DNA from: Capniomyces stellatus
Lineage: Eukaryota > Kickxellomycota > Harpellomycetes > Harpellales > Legeriomycetaceae
Assembly: GCA_001661515.1 (NCBI GenBank)
Contig: LUVW01000020.1
Location: 372,001-436,000, forward strand
DNA length: 64,000 bases
Direction of reading: 5' to 3'
The notes under the pieces were generated by a model. That model saw only the letters and a program-made list of their open reading frames with translations, ran no database searches and was not told the origin of the DNA. The translations under genes were made by a program, and so were the position numbers. Within the stretch, counting starts at the first letter, position 1. Each line of letters begins with the position of its first letter. Shown one piece after another: positions 46,370-56,132 of the stretch.

Positions 46370-47390
46370 TTACTCGCTGTTAAATATAAACTCCTTCAAT
46401 TTAGCGTAGGCAGTGTCAAGGTCGTCGTTAACAATCTTGCAGTCAAATGAACCCGGCAACTTTGCAAATTCCATCTCCTTAACCGCTGTTTCGAGTCTTT
46501 TTTGGATTGCTTCAGCCGAGTCGGTTTTACGTCCAGTAAGTCGTTCCTTCAGGATCTCGAGTGAAGGTGGTGAAATAAAAACGTATCGAGCGTTAAGGTC
46601 GGTTTTCTTTACCTGCATCACACCTTGCTATAAAAAGGTATATAAATCAAACAAATCAACTTTACCATTCAACAAATTTTTTTTTTGTTTATACTTTTTT
46701 TCTCTCTTTCTCGTGTTATTTCTGCCGGTTTATATAAAACTTGGGGATTTTGATAATGTTTTTATGCTAGTTGGCTTGCAGATAGTTGAAAGTAACCTAC
46801 TATTTCTATGTCCAAAATGCATATTTTTCCTGAGTCGACAACATTCTTTACAGCTTGGATTGTAGTGCCGTACAAGTTGCCAGAAAATTCAGCATGCTCG
46901 ATAAACTGATTGTTATTTACTCCCTCCAAGAATTCATCTCTGCTCACAAAATAGTACGATATTCCCTCCTTTTCCCCATCACGCGGTGTTCTCGTCGTGT
47001 CTATCAAATCGAATTTACACATATTCGTTCTATTTTATTTGGTATTTTTGGCCAAGCACAAAATCAATCAAATCAACCTATATGCGGTCGAATAATCTAC
47101 AATTGTGAGTATTAAATGCGCAAAAAAAAACTGTAATTAAATGCAAAACCAAAACTCACTTGAAACGCTGAAGCCAAAATCTTTTGGGAATTCAGCAAAC
47201 AATTTGCCAAGCAACGTGCTTTTCCCACTACCCGATGGGCCGAAAAGAACGATAGGACCTAAGATTGGAATTTTGATTCACTTAAACAATTAAGTTTCGT
47301 GATTTTTGATAAGAAATAAGTGCACACCAATTTACCTAAGAAAAATATGTGTAAATTAAAACTCAACTAACGCTTTAGTATTGCAGACAT
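46370..47390 (-). CDS. GUK1: Guanylate kinase
   Basis: Four exons: 47390-47372, 47258-47160, 47000-46801, 46627-46370; 191 residues, the normal length. It phosphorylates GMP to GDP with ATP. The P-loop is GPSGSGKS (from residue 13). [11 protein letters not shown] spans a junction and is the GMP-binding Thr-Thr-Arg-x-Pro-Arg-x-Gly-Glu motif. [21 protein letters not shown] and [16 protein letters not shown] follow as in the family. All borders are GT-AG (donors GTTAGT, GTGAGT, GTAGGT). Confidence 0.96.
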
Positions 47391-47853: not shown

Positions 47854-50800
47854 CTAGCTGCGCGAATTGGGTTTGTAAGAACCAAGTATTGGCGGGACCG
47901 GAATGGATACATGGGTGCTTGGCGTATATGCTCTGTTTGTAAGACCAATATTTTCGTTTATTTTGCCTGGTATTATGCCATTCTTATTACTGGTGTTCAA
48001 AGCATAGTCAAGGTGGATATATTTCTTATAGCTGCTGTAGTTGCTTGGTAAGGCTTGACCAACTCCAAACTCACTCTCCATGTGTTTTCCATTGTTATTG
48101 ATGATGTGTTGGTTATTGTTTGAGCATCTATACTTAAAGTAATCAAAGCCCGCAGCCATCTCTTCAGAGCTTGGCACCCAGCTGTAATTGTTTTTATAGC
48201 TATCGTTGTATTCACCAGCATCACCGTCTTTTAAATGGTCTAGCAGTCCTATTCTAGCTTTACTTTCGCTCAATGGAACCATATTAATGGCCGAATCTGA
48301 TATATCCGTGTCGTTTGCACAACTGCCACCGCGCACATCTTTGCGGCTTGGTTTTTTAATGAGATTCATTATTTTGTTCTTTTTAACTGTTACTTGGAAA
48401 CCTTCATTAAAATCTGACGCATAGCTGAAATTTGAAGGCAAATCGCTGTCCCCAGGCGACTCTGAAACCCCACTTACAATGCTTGTATTGCTGGATTCGC
48501 CCTTGTACCAGATTTCAAAAAAGTCCTTGAATTTTCTGAACCTACTCTTGTCGTCGTGGTTTAGTTTAAGCTCTCGGTCTATGCTACCCTTGCTATCAAC
48601 ACCCGTCTTGTGTTCATTATTGTAGAGCATACCTGGGTCTTGGATGCCAACATATTGATCATCGCCGCAATCCCCAACGGATACTGGCATGCTTGTATTT
48701 ATTACCGCGTACGAGTCTATGACTCCTTGTTGATGCTGATCGCTGTTTGTGTGTGTATCTTTGTTGTTAAATTGAAAATTTCCCATAACTTTGTTTATAA
48801 ATCCATTAAAACGTGCAACTCCTACTGCGCCTTCTCTAATACCCGGAACGCTAGCTTTGTTTAAATTATCACCACATCCCTCATCCTTGCCATTATCATC
48901 ACGTTTAAGGTAATCTAGGCCATTGTTGTCGGTTTTATTGTCGGGTTTGCTGTCAATTTTGCTGTCGATTTTGTTGTCGGGTTTGCTGTCGATTTTGTTG
49001 TCGGTTTTGTTATCGAGTTTTTTGTCAGTTGTGTTGTCAGCTGTGTTGTCAGGTTTTTTTTCGATTTTGCTGTAGTCCTTTCCTTGACTTTCAAGCACGT
49101 TGTAATCATACTTTTTGTTTCTCTCTGCTTCACTTGGGATAACCAAATCTCTGCTCATGTAGTTATTATTCTGTGCATTGCGATTGTTGCCTTCTCGAAC
49201 CCAGTCAGCCCAGTACTTTTGGGGAACTGGGCTACTAAGCATTTTGTTGGGTGCCAAGATTTTGTTTTTTGCGCTGATTCCGTTTTTTCTGGCCAAATTT
49301 TGGCCATTTTCAGCACTGTTTGTTTGGTTTTTGGAGTCCAAGGGCAAAATTAATTCATCGGTGTTTTTGTCTTCAACTTTTCCAACATTCTGGCTTTGGT
49401 TGTTTATTTTCCGTGTCTGCCCCCAAGAAAAATCATCGAACCTCCAAAAAGAGTAAACCGGAATGATTAGATTCCAGATAGGCATGGACAGGATGTACCA
49501 CAGCAGCCAGTAGAACATTATATATTTCCTAATGGGAGAGGTGAGTACAATTGCAATATGCACACCAAACACTATAACAATTGCTGAAATCAGTCCAATG
49601 TTTAGCGTAAATGTACTGTTCACTATAAGGGATATGGCAATGAAACACGTTGAAACAAAAGCTGCAGGTAGCGAAAAGTTGGCTATGAGATCAAGGAAAG
49701 CCATAAACTGCATTGAAAAGCAAAACGTGCCACAAAGTTCATTAACTAGCAGCAGCTCCATCAAGTTGTGGACAGTAGAGTTGACCCATCTTCGTCGCTG
49801 TGACATCAAGACCTTTAGAGTGTTTGGGACAATAGTGTAGCAGATTGCGTTTGGCAGGTATATAGTCTTTCTGTTGGGAAACGTTTTCAGCATCACGGTG
49901 GTTAGGAATCGGTCTTCACCAAGCAATAGAAGGTTCTTTTGGTGCAAAGTGACCACCTCGTTGCAGCTGTAGGATGATATTACATCAGGCGAGACAAACA
50001 GAGGTGTTTTGATAGTATTGGTGTTGGAGTATGCTCTATACATGGAGAAGCAACCGGGAAGGCACGTAACAGCACCCCAAACCGACTCAAAGGACTTGCT
50101 AAGGTTATGCGATATAAAATACTCAAAAACCTGGATCCTCGTTATTATGCTTTGAGACTTGTTTCCAACCCGGGTTTCACCGCATATTCCCATAATGCCG
50201 TGGTCCTTTGTCATTGCGCTAACCATTAGGCTCAGGCTTCTCTCGTTAATTATCGTGTCCGCATCGACCATAAGTACCAGCTCCAGAATATCAGGCCTGA
50301 TTCCGCAGACATCGAACAGAACTTCAGTAAGTTCAAACTCCAAGGGTGTCATTGGCTCATTCAAACATGCTTTTTTGAGCCACTGCATAACTATCAGTTG
50401 TGAGTCTCTTTTGCCTCTATTCCCAGGCTTTGCATTTTCTTGGTTGGTTTCGGCTGCAGAGCCCGTCTTGAGAACTGCAATCATTGGCATCTGGCTACCA
50501 CTGCTAGATCTGTAGCTGCCCCCGTAAACTTGCGCATTATTGAACCTATAAATACCATCACCTATTGATGTGTATGCCACATCCTTTGTGCTGTCATCCG
50601 CACAACTGCCACCCACACCACTACTGTCTTTATTCCCGATCTTGCCCCAGTTACTTTTTTGAGGTTTGTTACTATTGGCATAATTGCTTGCGCCTGCACC
50701 CATGTCTTTGCCTTTGTTATGCTTACTATTTACCTCCATAAGCTCCAATACTATCTCAGGCGTGCTTTTACTTTCTCCCTCGCCCTTCACATTTCCATCT

Positions 50801-52213
50801 GATATCACAATAAGGACCTTGTGCGATCCAGGGTAGTCCGTTTCTGCCACTGAATCAAACGTGAGCTCCAGTGACTCCCTTCCTTCAGAGTAGCATGTAA
50901 CTATCACCAAAACATACGGCAGCTTTTCGACCCCATTTGATTCAGAGCCCGACATTGTGTTTAGCTTGACCAGATCGCCACGGTATCTCCACGAAAATGT
51001 CCAGTTGAACAAAACTGCACATAGAAACTTTACCAGAGTCACCAGTCCAATGATAAACATACATGCAACCGTTAAGCCATTTGCCACTACACATCCCACC
51101 TGTGTACCATCCACCATGCCTACTAGAAACTGCGCATAAAAGCAATCAAGCATTGACAACATTTCCTTATCCCCATTTATCATTCGGGTTGCGTCTGTTC
51201 CTACAATACCATTGAGTTTTCTTGTCACTATTTTCCCACCTAAATACCCTTCCATGTCCTCAACGTCATCTAAATAAGCCTTTAAATCAAACACGCTGTT
51301 GTTGTAGACGAATAACTTGTAATTTTTGCTTTTTATGTCTTCCCACTGAAACGAAACCCATTTACGTGTTTCTAGCGACCTCATTGTTCTGCTCATGTCG
51401 CTTGGCACATGGCAAAATCCCGTTTCTATACCGATACAGCTTTGTGCTGATTTCCCGTCAGGCCACAGTCTACAACCTCGCCTTTTTGATGAGCTTGATG
51501 AAAAAAATCTGGATATATCGGTCCCATAAAGATCGCCGTCTATGCTTGGGTGTATTTGCGTCCCAAAGCCACTGGTTACGTCATAAATTTTCCCATAAAT
51601 GCCAACATACCTTTTATTGCCATCCTCACCGTACATGCTTTTCATCGATCCTAGCGTTATTGACTCCACCTCTGTGCAAAACAACTGAATCAGCCCAAAA
51701 GTAACAAAAACCACCAACCCACACATCAGCGCTATTATTATGCATAGCGTTATCTTTTCCCTCCACGCCTGCAGTCTCTCAGGCTCCTTGGTTTTTTTGA
51801 GCCTTGACAGCACAAAGTTTGGAACGTAAAACGTCACAACTTTGCTTAACACTCTCCACGTTTTAGATATCGAGCCATTGGCTGCTGTCATACCAACCAG
51901 CTCTTTCTTTTTTCTTTGCTTTTTTCTACTTTCCCGCTTTGTTCCGTCAAAAAAATTCACCATTCCTCTAAACCTTCTGTTTCTAATGCCATTTTCGGAG
52001 CTTGTTCCATTGTACCTGCTGTTTGCTGCATTTGCTGTCGACATATCCGATCTTTCACTGCCATTCATCTGTAATCCCCTCAAATCTTCTATTTTTATCC
52101 CGCTCTTCAGCTCCTTTTCCATTTCATGATTTTTTATCGCATTGTTATACACATGGTCAAAGTCGAGTATTTCAATGTCTTTACCCGTTTTCACTTTATT
52201 TCGATCAATCTTT
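47854..52213 (-). other. Chitin synthase (division 2, class IV-like) part of the fusion
   Basis: This exon encodes a processive GT2 enzyme that makes chitin from UDP-GlcNAc at the plasma membrane. An N-terminal membrane segment (LCIIIALMCGLVVFVTFGLI) is followed by the cytochrome-b5-like region typical of division 2 (YVGIYGKIYDVTSGFG). The catalytic domain has TCYSEGRESLELTFDSVAET, LVLMVDADTIIN, LLGEDRFLT and SQRRRWVNSTVHNL (QRRRW at about fusion residues 1855-1859). Three or more membrane helices follow. There is no myosin motor, so it is not class V/VII. The last 450 residues are disordered and include Lys-x-Asp-Asn repeats. Confidence 0.93.
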
Positions 52214-55200
52214 CTATAGTGGTTTATTCATCAGTGTGTATGTTTAAGTATTAAACCGAACAATCATTCTAGTAAACAAAAATAAAAACACCTATTTGAC
52301 TTTGTTATACGACTACTTAATTCCAAAATTCAACCAACTATTAATATGGTCATACCTTTCTATCTTAGGTAAGTCTGGAAGCTTTTTCGAGCTATGCTTT
52401 ATATCATCTGATTCTACCTTTGAATCCGGACTATCTATCTTAATAGTCGGCAGTGCCACCGGGAGTTTTTTTGGCACCGGGATTGGTAGTGGCTTGCTTT
52501 CCCTGGGCCCGTCTACTTTTCCAACCCTATTAACTAGCGGCAGTTCGGTTGTTGTGCTATCTTTTCTAGAGCCGCTTTTTGCCTCATCTAACGCACTATT
52601 TTTTTCGGGCTGATAACTAGCTCTCTTCTGGCTCAGCACAACCGGTGCCTTTTCCAGGCTGTTGGAATCGACTGCACCCTCTGTTTTCTTCCCACCTTCA
52701 TCCAAGTCTGTTGCTGTACTTTTGCTGGATATTTTATCCACATCCTCAATTTTACTGACTGTCTCTTGCTTGGCTCCGGCTCTATAAGCTGAATTATAGT
52801 CTTTTGGCAGAATGACTTTTATATTCTTTCCAGACTTGGCCCATTTTCTATTTAACATTGAGCTAGTATAAAAACCGTCGCCGTTTCTATCTTGTTCTAG
52901 CTCTCTGTCAGCTTTTACATCTCTGCAAATAATTGAACCGGTGCTTTTCAAATCCAAATTACGATTGCTCTGTAGACTCGGTTGCACAGCTATATTGTTC
53001 TCTGCTTTATTGTCGTTTGACAAGCCCCCACTATCACGCTTTTCTGTATTTCTGGTGTTTGATTCGTCGATGTACTTGCCATCATCAACTACAACCACGT
53101 TACCTCCTATACCATTGGTTCCGCTGCCACTCATTGTATCACCACCCAATCTCTCCATCTTAGCTGAGCTGGGTTTTTTGGAAATCGCAGGCGCGCTATC
53201 TTTAGAGATTGCAATGCTTTCATTGATATTTCTAGTTTTATCTACTTTGTCAAGACTCTTGTAAATATTGCTGCCACCTATCAGTCTGTCTGATTCAGCA
53301 TTTGAGGCTTCTTTGTTATTAACTACTAGAGCATCTTTTGGCACAATAAACCCAAGAGGCACAGCACTTGTAGCTGCCGCTTCCATATTCTCGTCAGGAA
53401 TTGGAGGTTTAGTACTATTGTCTTGTACGCATTCGGGCTTGTAGAAACCAAGTGGGCTAGGTCTAATAGGAGCTAAACTGCCCCTCTCAACAAACGTTAT
53501 AGGAGGGTTATATCTGCTTTGTTTCGATTCCGCAAATTTTTTATTTGTGGTGTTTTGTGTTTGATTCTCTTGGTCGATACCATCATAATTTCCGTATTTT
53601 ATAGAACTTGAAGCCGTACTCTCGCTGGGGTTAATTTTTAAACCGCGATTAGACTCTATATTTGAATCAGCAGTGGTTTTGCCTCTTTCTTGGAGTGTGG
53701 GAATTGTTGGTTTTGTTGGTGCATCGTTGAGCCCATCTGTTTTAGACTTGACCAATCTGTTCTTGGCTAAGCAACTGTTGGCCAAATCAACGCTATTATT
53801 GGAACAACTTTTTCCATCCAAACCCTCAGGAGTAGCCGAGTCCACCCTCTTCTCAAAAGTATATTTGCTGTTTCCGATACTCCTACCTCGCACGTTTAAT
53901 TCGACTTTTGGAATGTTGGACCTCATTCTTATTTTGGCAGACTCAACAATCAGCTTTCTTGCTGGAGATAGCTCTATTATTTTACTACTACCAGACTCAA
54001 TTTGGGCAGTATTATTCTCGTAGCTTTTGCTTATATCTCGGCTCTGAGCACGGACATTGGCCAAATTCGTATTTTCGGGGTAGTTTGCTATTGAGCCAGC
54101 GTCGTTTGTTGGAGTACTTTTAGTAAAAGTAGGCCCCTCGTTATTATTTTCGACCACTGCTGTATTCAAAACTAAACCTCTGCCAAGTGACCGGTTACCC
54201 TCATCACCTTTGGGTTTACCAACATTTTCATCTCCATTTCCATTTCCATTTTTACTGGGAAGCTTGGCTGAATCATCCGCTCCTGCAAAATACCTTTGCA
54301 ACAAGTTGAATCCCTTCCCTTTATTTTGAAAGTCGGACATCTTTTCCTCGTCTTCTTTCAAAAACAATTTACTGCTTTTTACGTCAGACTGTTCCTCCTG
54401 CTCTAAACCCCTGAACGCCAACTCGGACTTTATGCTTGGAAACTGTTTCTCTAATTTGCCCAAACTATATGTTCTTGCCTCCTCGGAACTAAAAACATTA
54501 CCTGCCACAATATCACGCACTTGGTCTTCTAAACTAATATTGTTTGCGTGTTCAGTGTTCTCAAAATCCTTTACTATGTTGGTTATTTCATGGTGCCCTG
54601 CTTTTGTAGCCAGCTCTGTAACCATTTTCTGGTGTCTTGGAGACTTTAAGCCGTGCTTCATGTCATACTCCATAAGTGCCTGACATACACCTATCCTTCC
54701 CATGTACGCCGCCAACATTAGCGCCGACCAACCCGCCTATAGTTTGCATGCAAAATCAATCAATATTATATGTTAACGTCAACTACAATATAGCCTGAAG
54801 TTTGAAATTTCATGTCTTGTTTTTGTATACACATAGTATTTGTGATCGATTAGTGTTTAGGACACCCTTGTCATTCCGTGATATGCATTTTTACATCAAC
54901 AGAGAGCAATCGACAGATCCTTAAAAGCCAATCTACATATCAAGCCCATACTTACGTTGTCGAATTTCTTGGTTTGAGCTCCTCTTCTCAGCAAAAGATA
55001 AACCACCGAGTTGTGGCCTTTATAGCTTGCCAACATCAATGCTGTCTTTCCTCCGGAATCTTTGTAGTTGATTTGCTTTTCCCCAGCAAGCAGTATAAGA
55101 TTTAGAGAATTTGGGCAACCATAGTATGCCGCCATATGAAGGGGCTTTGAGTTTTCCTAAAAGGTTTAATGTTTATATTTACACTTGTATTAAGCTCCCA

Positions 55201-56132
55201 AAACAAGAATTTCTGCAACTTAAAAGCATGGAATAAGGTTCTGATTTCTTTATTATTGATATAAAGTGCCGATCTTTTGACTAATTTCATTTTAACCCCT
55301 TGACAACTTAGTCTGTTGCTTTTGGAATATATACATAGAATCTATTCGACTCTCTTGACTTACCAGGTTCACTATGTTTATGCTTGATCCATACACAATC
55401 AAATACTCTACACACTTGTGGTGTCTTCCCGCTGAGGCATGGTGTAGTGCTGTGTTGCCCATATTATCTACTCGGTCGAATTGCACAGAATTTTTGAATT
55501 AATATTTATTTTGGCTAAACCTAACATTTAGTCGATACATTCAAAAGCTGGCCTCAGACGAGGCACACTTGTGATATTAATCGCAATGCGAACTTTTGGT
55601 TAATATAGTACCCTCATATTACTTTTTTTAAAAAAAAATTCATCTGCCACCTCAGCGCTAACTAATTACCTTTTCTGTTCAAGTCTACGTTTTTATTTTG
55701 GCACAGCCATCTAACAATTTCTGTATGGCCGTTGCTACACGCCAGGATCAATAGCGAGACGCCATTGCTATCGCATACATCTATCAGGTGTTTATTTTTG
55801 CTTGCGATTGCCACAAACTCGCTTGTATTTCCTGAAGAACAGACCTTAAATAGGCCAAGCAATACGCTATTTTCTGCGATATCTGCACCTCTCCCTTCGT
55901 CTGCGGCAACTGTTTCAAATCCATTACTACTTTTTGGTGTTACACATGTTGGATTGACGACTGAATGTGTGTTTTTGGATACTGTATTTGTATCAAGCGG
56001 TTTGCTTGTATAGTATTCCTTTACTGAGCTTGGTTTTAATATTAGTTTGTATGTTTTGTCAATGTCGCCTAGTGAGAATTTTTTTTTGCCATTAAGTATC
56101 TTGTCAACCGGTTTTATAGGACCCTTATCCAT
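47854..56132 (-). CDS. Ankyrin-repeat/chitin synthase fusion protein (predicted single gene)
   Basis: Five exons: 56132-55670, 55467-55364, 55156-54956, 54736-52356, 52213-47854; 2502 residues. Exons 1-4 give a protein starting MDKGPIKPVDKILNGKKKF with about six ankyrin repeats (roughly residues 95-330; GNTALHHASAGRHHKCVEYL, GGKTALMLASYKGHNSVVYL) and then about 700 Ser/Lys/Asp-rich disordered residues. Exon 5 is a division-2 chitin synthase. The two parts join across a 142-bp intron (52355-52214, donor GTATGA, acceptor CTATAG): GAA AG | A AAG, phase 2. The synthase frame has no ATG at its start; its first ATG is at 52122, within the frame. Only 118 bp separate the two unspliced frames. If the splice is not used, the ankyrin protein would end at 52313 with 1063 residues, and the synthase would need ATG 52122. 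Confidence 0.75.
48927..49065 (-). repeat. Coding 12-bp repeat (Lys-x-Asp-Asn/Ser) in the chitin synthase tail
   Basis: About eleven copies of a 12-bp unit encoding Lys-Pro/Thr/Ile-Asp-Asn/Ser tetrapeptides (DNKTDNKIDSKPDNKIDS). It lies in the cytosolic C-terminal tail and is probably length-variable. Confidence 0.85.

Follow-up and report, generated by a model that had tools for sequence, protein, structure and literature searches.

The locus discussed here raises the question of whether an ankyrin-repeat protein and a division-2 chitin synthase, encoded one directly behind the other in the fungus Capniomyces stellatus, are two proteins or one. It lies in a window of 64,000 nucleotides (contig LUVW01000020.1, positions 372,001 to 436,000) of a genome of 24.5 Mb in 59 contigs. 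The ankyrin exons occupy positions 56132-52356 of the window and are followed by the synthase frame at 52213-47854, both on the minus strand. A first-pass annotation had placed both frames at these positions, which was confirmed, and both are real. It had also proposed that they are spliced into one fused enzyme. This proposal is strongly supported by the relatives of the protein, i.e., by the 35 ankyrin-synthases among the 120 listed matches, by the clade to which the synthase belongs and by the origin of the ankyrin block, whereas the arguments originally put forward for it do not carry it.

The first four exons encode the ankyrin part. Exon 1 (55670-56132) begins with the ATG at 56132 and contains the start of the ankyrin block; it matches Ank_2 and Ank_3, the joined frame is open, and a match to DUF249 stays below the cut-off of that family. 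Exon 2 (55364-55467), with the donor GTAAGT, encodes an ankyrin repeat that was read from the sequence and is collinear with the blocks of the relatives. This exon was not called by the self-trained gene finder. Exon 3 (54956-55156), also with the donor GTAAGT, adds further repeats (Ank, E 3.6e-10) that are again collinear with those of the relatives, and is, besides exon 1, the exon in which ankyrin families were detected. Exon 4 (52356-54736) encodes the final repeats, the end of which aligns with the relatives, followed in the same open frame by a long low-complexity tether; when scanned singly against Pfam, this exon gave no match. The three introns upstream have the donors GTAATT, GTAAGT and GTAAGT and the acceptors GAGTAG, TTTTAG and CTATAG. 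The first and second of them are based on reading of the sequence and alignment with the relatives, and the gene finder recovered the third intron only.

Exon 5 (47854-52213) encodes membrane segments, assigned by comparison with the structure model of a relative (P0021, see below), a cytochrome b5-like and a CHS4-like segment, the Chitin_synth_2 domain and a C-terminal tail up to the stop codon. The open frame that holds Chitin_synth_2 runs from 52227 to 47854 and is the second long frame of the locus. Its match to Chitin_synth_2 (PF03142) is very strong (E 1.5e-183; 611.7 bits against a cut-off of 27), that to the CHS4-like domain PF22997 is clear (E 1.7e-10), and that to the cytochrome b5-like domain PF00173 is weak (20.7 bits, below the cut-off of 23.7). 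The translation contains MVDADT, GEDR and SQRRRW, which correspond to the GT2 catalytic motifs DAD, EDR and QRRRW, and it is matched by solved chitin synthases with a best E of 3.9e-16. The domain scan gave no match to DEK_C in the synthase, and no myosin head was found upstream of it in exons 1, 3 and 4, each scanned singly (exon 2, of 104 bases, was left out).

Between exons 4 and 5 lies a candidate in-phase intron of 142 bases (52355-52214, GTATGA...CTATAG), and most of what the first-pass annotation had reported of this junction is indeed present. The donor context AGAAAG/GTATGA is found at 52361-52350 and the CTATAG acceptor just before 52213. Excision of the intron joins 54736-52356 to 52213-47854, restores an AGA codon, keeps the frame and yields 2502 residues without an internal stop. 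The distance of 118 bases between the stop of the unspliced ankyrin frame (stop codon 52313-52315) and the first in-frame GTG of the synthase frame (52194) was also correct. The claim that the synthase frame has no ATG at its 5' end was mistaken: an in-frame ATG is located at 52120-52122, about 80 codons upstream of the block to which most relatives can be aligned (from residue 1162 of the fused protein), and a separate synthase of 1422 residues is, therefore, possible from the sequence alone. The locus could thus also be read as two adjacent genes that arose when an old fusion was split in this lineage, with the ankyrin gene ending at 52313, the synthase starting at 52122, and a short promoter in between.

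A splice and coding model that was self-trained on this genome (33 sequences, 313,638 bases; coding part, 59 frames and 107,898 bases) was used to score these possibilities, with the tested intron excluded from the re-estimated splice tables and the tested region from the coding training. The model is crude, as two of the three upstream introns of the gene were not recovered. The scores of 20.3 nats for an intron at 52338-52194, 19.0 nats for an intron at 52355-52214 and 20.2 nats for two genes are in effect tied, and the window by itself cannot separate one gene from two. The 91 bases that precede the ATG in the open frame (52213-52123) are equally indecisive. A score at least as high as their 0.9 nats is obtained for 18% of 2583 open non-coding stretches; of the coding windows from the two exons, 18-20% score no higher. 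Hence, the openness of this head is unremarkable, and it scores like weak coding sequence.

As to where the junction lies, the self-trained gene finder merged both frames, at 52338-52194 (GTTGGT...AAG) rather than at 52355-52214. Such other splice sites would alter the tether slightly and represent a variant of the fusion rather than an alternative to it. The advantage of 1.3 nats for 52338-52194 is within noise, and AAG acceptors are rarer than TAG acceptors, which are the commonest among the 50 called introns (7 and 26 of them, respectively). Moreover, CTGAT, presumably a branch-like motif, is found about 18 bases upstream of the competing acceptor at 52214. The sites at 52355 and 52214 are themselves weak: 14 of 50 called donors score no higher than the former, and the acceptor before 52213 is outscored by all but four of 50 called acceptor contexts. 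The exact junction is somewhat more likely than not 52355/52214, as first proposed, and a fused gene with sites elsewhere is less likely.

The first-pass annotation had suggested that ankyrin repeats and PF03142 should be sought together in single proteins of related genomes. When the synthase frame was used to search for relatives, 5547 were found, and in 35 of the best 120 a single predicted protein contains PF03142 together with ankyrin families. Those filed under an organism name belong to Coemansia, Basidiobolus ranarum, Entomophthora muscae, several Glomeromycotina, Endogone, Calcarisporiella, Blastocladiella and Sorochytrium. All fusions in the relatives are predicted proteins, but as these entries derive from a variety of organisms and sources, a single faulty gene model is unlikely to be their cause. 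In 30 chosen rows that were rescanned, PF03142 was found in all and Ank_2 in 29, the exception being, by its database entry, P0029. Many of the ankyrin-synthases carry the name ATP-dependent RNA helicase in the database. Five matches without ankyrin repeats were kept outside the tree discussed below, i.e., P0006, P0007 and P0018 of Coemansia, P0023 of Thamnocephalis, and P0040; of these, P0006, P0018 and P0023 are marked as partial in the database.

The highest identity among the matches listed, 49% over the aligned part, is to P0029 of Zancudomyces culisetae, which also belongs to the Harpellales (Kickxellomycotina). The annotation of this protein has no ankyrin repeats and gives it a start methionine of its own, which would fit two genes. 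The model is poor, however, as it omits the equivalent of fused residues 1710-2014 and continues into a guanylate kinase. A synthase-guanylate kinase fusion of this kind was rejected for the window, where reading by eye shows a possible first exon for the kinase itself (MSAILKR...). Three guanylate kinase matches were found in the host genome, and all are exons of this kinase gene. Apart from P0029, no Harpellales name appears among the 120 listed synthase matches or among the 120 listed of 301 matches of 1376-4378 residues. Similarly, no free-standing ankyrin protein named as Harpellales was found among 71 matches to the ankyrin half; the same search also failed to pick up Coemansia fusions that are known and would have fitted in length, so that its negative result cannot be read as absence.

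The phylogenetic position of the synthase was determined in a tree of 72 rows, comprising 32 of the 35 ankyrin-synthases (not P0003, P0015 and P0035), 31 hand-picked ankyrin-less proteins, eight other division-2 synthases of the host genome (L001-L008) and the window protein. The 33 ankyrin rows, including the window, form one group together with four ankyrin-less rows. In a 66-row tree, from which five Coemansia rows and the long-branched P0229 had been removed, the ankyrin clade with the window and the same four rows lies on one side of a branch with support 99/89, which is present in 100% of 200 bootstrap trees. Within it, a clade of 31 rows that contains the window has support 100/97. Thus, the synthase domain of the window belongs inside the ankyrin-headed clade. 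The four ankyrin-less rows are P0029, already discussed; P0026 and P0037, which begin just before or within the conserved block; and P0047, which has 687 other residues upstream and no ankyrin family listed. Because these rows sit inside the clade, ankyrin as the sole label requires five changes on the 72-row tree. The synthases L001-L008 all fall outside the clade, and the window gene is, therefore, its sole member among the nine division-2 synthases of the genome that were placed (weaker genome matches on contigs C48, C21 and C1 were left out of the trees).

The ankyrin part was traced separately. In a comparison among the proteins collected for this analysis, the top 26 of 107 matches to the ankyrin block (fused residues 91-320) are ankyrin-synthases, ahead of any generic ankyrin, even though the generic ankyrins were drawn from the 71 proteins found using the ankyrin half of the window. 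In the reverse direction, the window outranks all generic ankyrins when P0001, P0016 and P0021 are used as queries; with P0115 of Blastocladiella, some generic ankyrins rank before it. The blocks of the window and the relatives are collinear and can be aligned repeat by repeat (two short rows of 30 were dropped from this alignment). A shared origin of the ankyrin block of the window and the blocks of the ankyrin-synthases is, therefore, well supported.

As both halves belong, each by itself, to one fused family, and are found in the same order with an in-phase junction, the locus is best read as one gene. It is thus highly likely that five exons form a single gene here and that its product, a chitin synthase with ankyrin repeats and some 2500 residues long, belongs to an old orthologous class within division 2. 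The fusion itself is very likely real and old, and not peculiar to this fungus. The reading as two genes can draw on the in-frame ATG, on a score that equals those for one gene and on the fact that seven of 26 pairs of neighboring long frames on the same strand are at most 190 bases apart, although one of these, at 190 bases, is evidently this very pair, and others may be exons of one gene. It is nevertheless quite improbable, since it would require a lineage-specific split of a layout known from Blastocladiella to Coemansia, would make the in-phase junction a matter of chance, leans on the poor model of P0029, and leaves 190 bases for a promoter, which is tight considering that none of the eight divergent pairs of long frames sampled is separated by less than 1934 bases.

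The product of this gene is, very probably, a chitin synthase that builds the cell wall and carries an integral ankyrin head. Its layout, i.e., an ankyrin solenoid, a low-complexity tether, membrane and CHS4-like segments, the GT2 domain and membrane helices, is well supported. A structure model of the relative P0021 from Paraglomus (based on 30 sequences; mean pLDDT 75.2, pTM 0.55) contains seven helix pairs at residues 37-261 (block pLDDT 85-96), followed by a disordered tether (267-368), long helices at 400-434 and 638-677, both interpreted as lying in the membrane, the catalytic domain and further helices at the C-terminus. In Foldseek searches, one part of the protein was matched to chitin and hyaluronan synthases with probability 1.00, with TM-scores by query length of 0.23-0.29, which are low because the matched region is a part of the chain; another part was matched to DARPins and ankyrins. 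The distance from the end of the ankyrin block to the QAWREK motif is 883 residues in the window, longer than in all 32 of the 35 ankyrin-synthases that were measured (86-450 residues; P0003, P0015 and P0078 were not included).

A rigid binding solenoid with a long and loose tether ahead of the first membrane helix suggests a docking module in the cytosol. Class V synthases are docked by an N-terminal myosin head, and for yeast Chs3 this is done by separate adaptors. By analogy with the myosin head, a cytosolic docking role is plausible for the ankyrin head: it would remain in the cytosol and may dock the enzyme, or the vesicle that carries it, onto a partner where the wall grows, while the tether would allow it to reach this partner without constraining catalysis. 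Tethered repeat domains are also known to hold some enzymes in check, and the CHS4-like domain may hint at built-in regulation. It is, however, unlikely that the head acts within the molecule to regulate catalysis rather than as a docking module, a reading that concerns its role alone and does not conflict with the fusion. The wide range of tether lengths in the relatives, the even longer tether of the window and the lack of confident packing of the whole chain in the P0021 model all speak against it, if not decisively.

With the myosin-headed (myosin XVII) synthases of classes V and VII, the window protein shares PF03142 and the principle of a membrane enzyme that bears a protein-binding module at its N-terminus. 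It differs from them in that ankyrin repeats take the place of the myosin head, DEK_C is not matched and the clade is a separate one. Five paralogues in the genome (L004-L008) form a distant clade in the 66-row tree and appear to be of the myosin type, to judge from the frames of 1966-2267 residues of four of them. The weak cytochrome b5-like domain, the CHS4-like domain and the catalytic family are shared with class IV, the type of yeast Chs3. In contrast, P0279 of Yarrowia (Chitin synthase 3), the rows of its clade and L001 and L002 of the host genome are all outside the ankyrin clade, and no ankyrin family is listed for the class IV-type database rows of the tree. The ankyrin-synthases of Coemansia, Basidiobolus, Glomeromycotina, Endogone, Calcarisporiella and Blastocladiella share with the window both the order of the domains and the origin of both halves.

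The first-pass annotation knew of no chitin synthase with N-terminal ankyrin repeats, which agrees with the main text of three surveys of chitin synthases, where the word ankyrin is absent (PMC4734345, PMC5353729, PMC5122149); the layout is, however, plain in databases. In one of these surveys, some early-branching synthases are labelled as 'others' (PMC4734345). Passages of another paper describe Chitin_synth_2 in combination with myosin, cytochrome b5 and DEK_C, and mention ankyrin for other families only (PMC8778642). A link between ankyrin and chitin synthase was not found in the passages of PMC8778642, PMC13391722, PMC3942036, PMC4471660 and PMC4023604, nor were any literature titles on ankyrin chitin synthases; subscription papers were mostly outside the scope of this search, so that a description may exist. 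Thus, the class is apparently undescribed in the literature covered, although the combination of domains can already be seen in the Pfam columns of the database.

Since the layout is common to many early-diverging fungi, the enzyme appears to belong to an old class and not to be an isolated case. Tentatively, the ankyrin-headed synthases could represent a separate ancestral class that predates the split between Blastocladiomycota, Zoopagomycota and Mucoromycota and was lost or became headless in Dikarya, with the head docking the enzyme like the Chs3 adaptors or the myosin head do. The distribution considered here is that among the best 120 of 5547 matches, and the absence from Dikarya and Chytridiomycota is that among the hand-picked rows of the tree. 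Most of what is known about how chitin synthases reach the growing wall comes from Dikarya. In early-diverging lineages, a conserved class of these enzymes that has its own protein-binding head would offer a direct handle on this delivery, and recognition of the class would correct the database names that now hide it.

Outside the clade of ankyrin-headed synthases, the genome search and the tree revealed eight more strong matches to division-2 chitin synthases (L001-L008). In the tree, L001 and L002 form a Chs3-like pair, L003 groups beside basidiomycete forms, and L004-L008 are five members of a distant clade, among which two pairs are located ~50 kb apart on contig C36 and ~30 kb apart on contig C7, respectively.

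Among the best 120 of 5547 database matches to the synthase frame, many of the ankyrin-headed chitin synthases bear the name ATP-dependent RNA helicase in their NCBI records (P0001-P0005, P0008-P0017, P0019, P0034, P0071, and P0115). The Pfam lists of these records contain no prominent helicase family. P0071, from Sorochytrium, also showed MIF4G and Upf2 matches in a Pfam rescan; perhaps, this record is a merged gene model from which the helicase name originated.

Within the catalytic region encoded by exon 5 (minus strand), a low-complexity insert at about 50590-50740 separates two stretches of the Chitin_synth_2 match. P0029, the closest listed relative, from Zancudomyces culisetae, has an insert at the same place, but it is shorter and different. 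Downstream of the synthase and on the same strand lies a guanylate kinase gene (46370-47390), the sole one found in the genome search. In P0029, a single model continues from the synthase into guanylate kinase, which suggests that this gene model is faulty and that the neighbourhood of the two genes is conserved.
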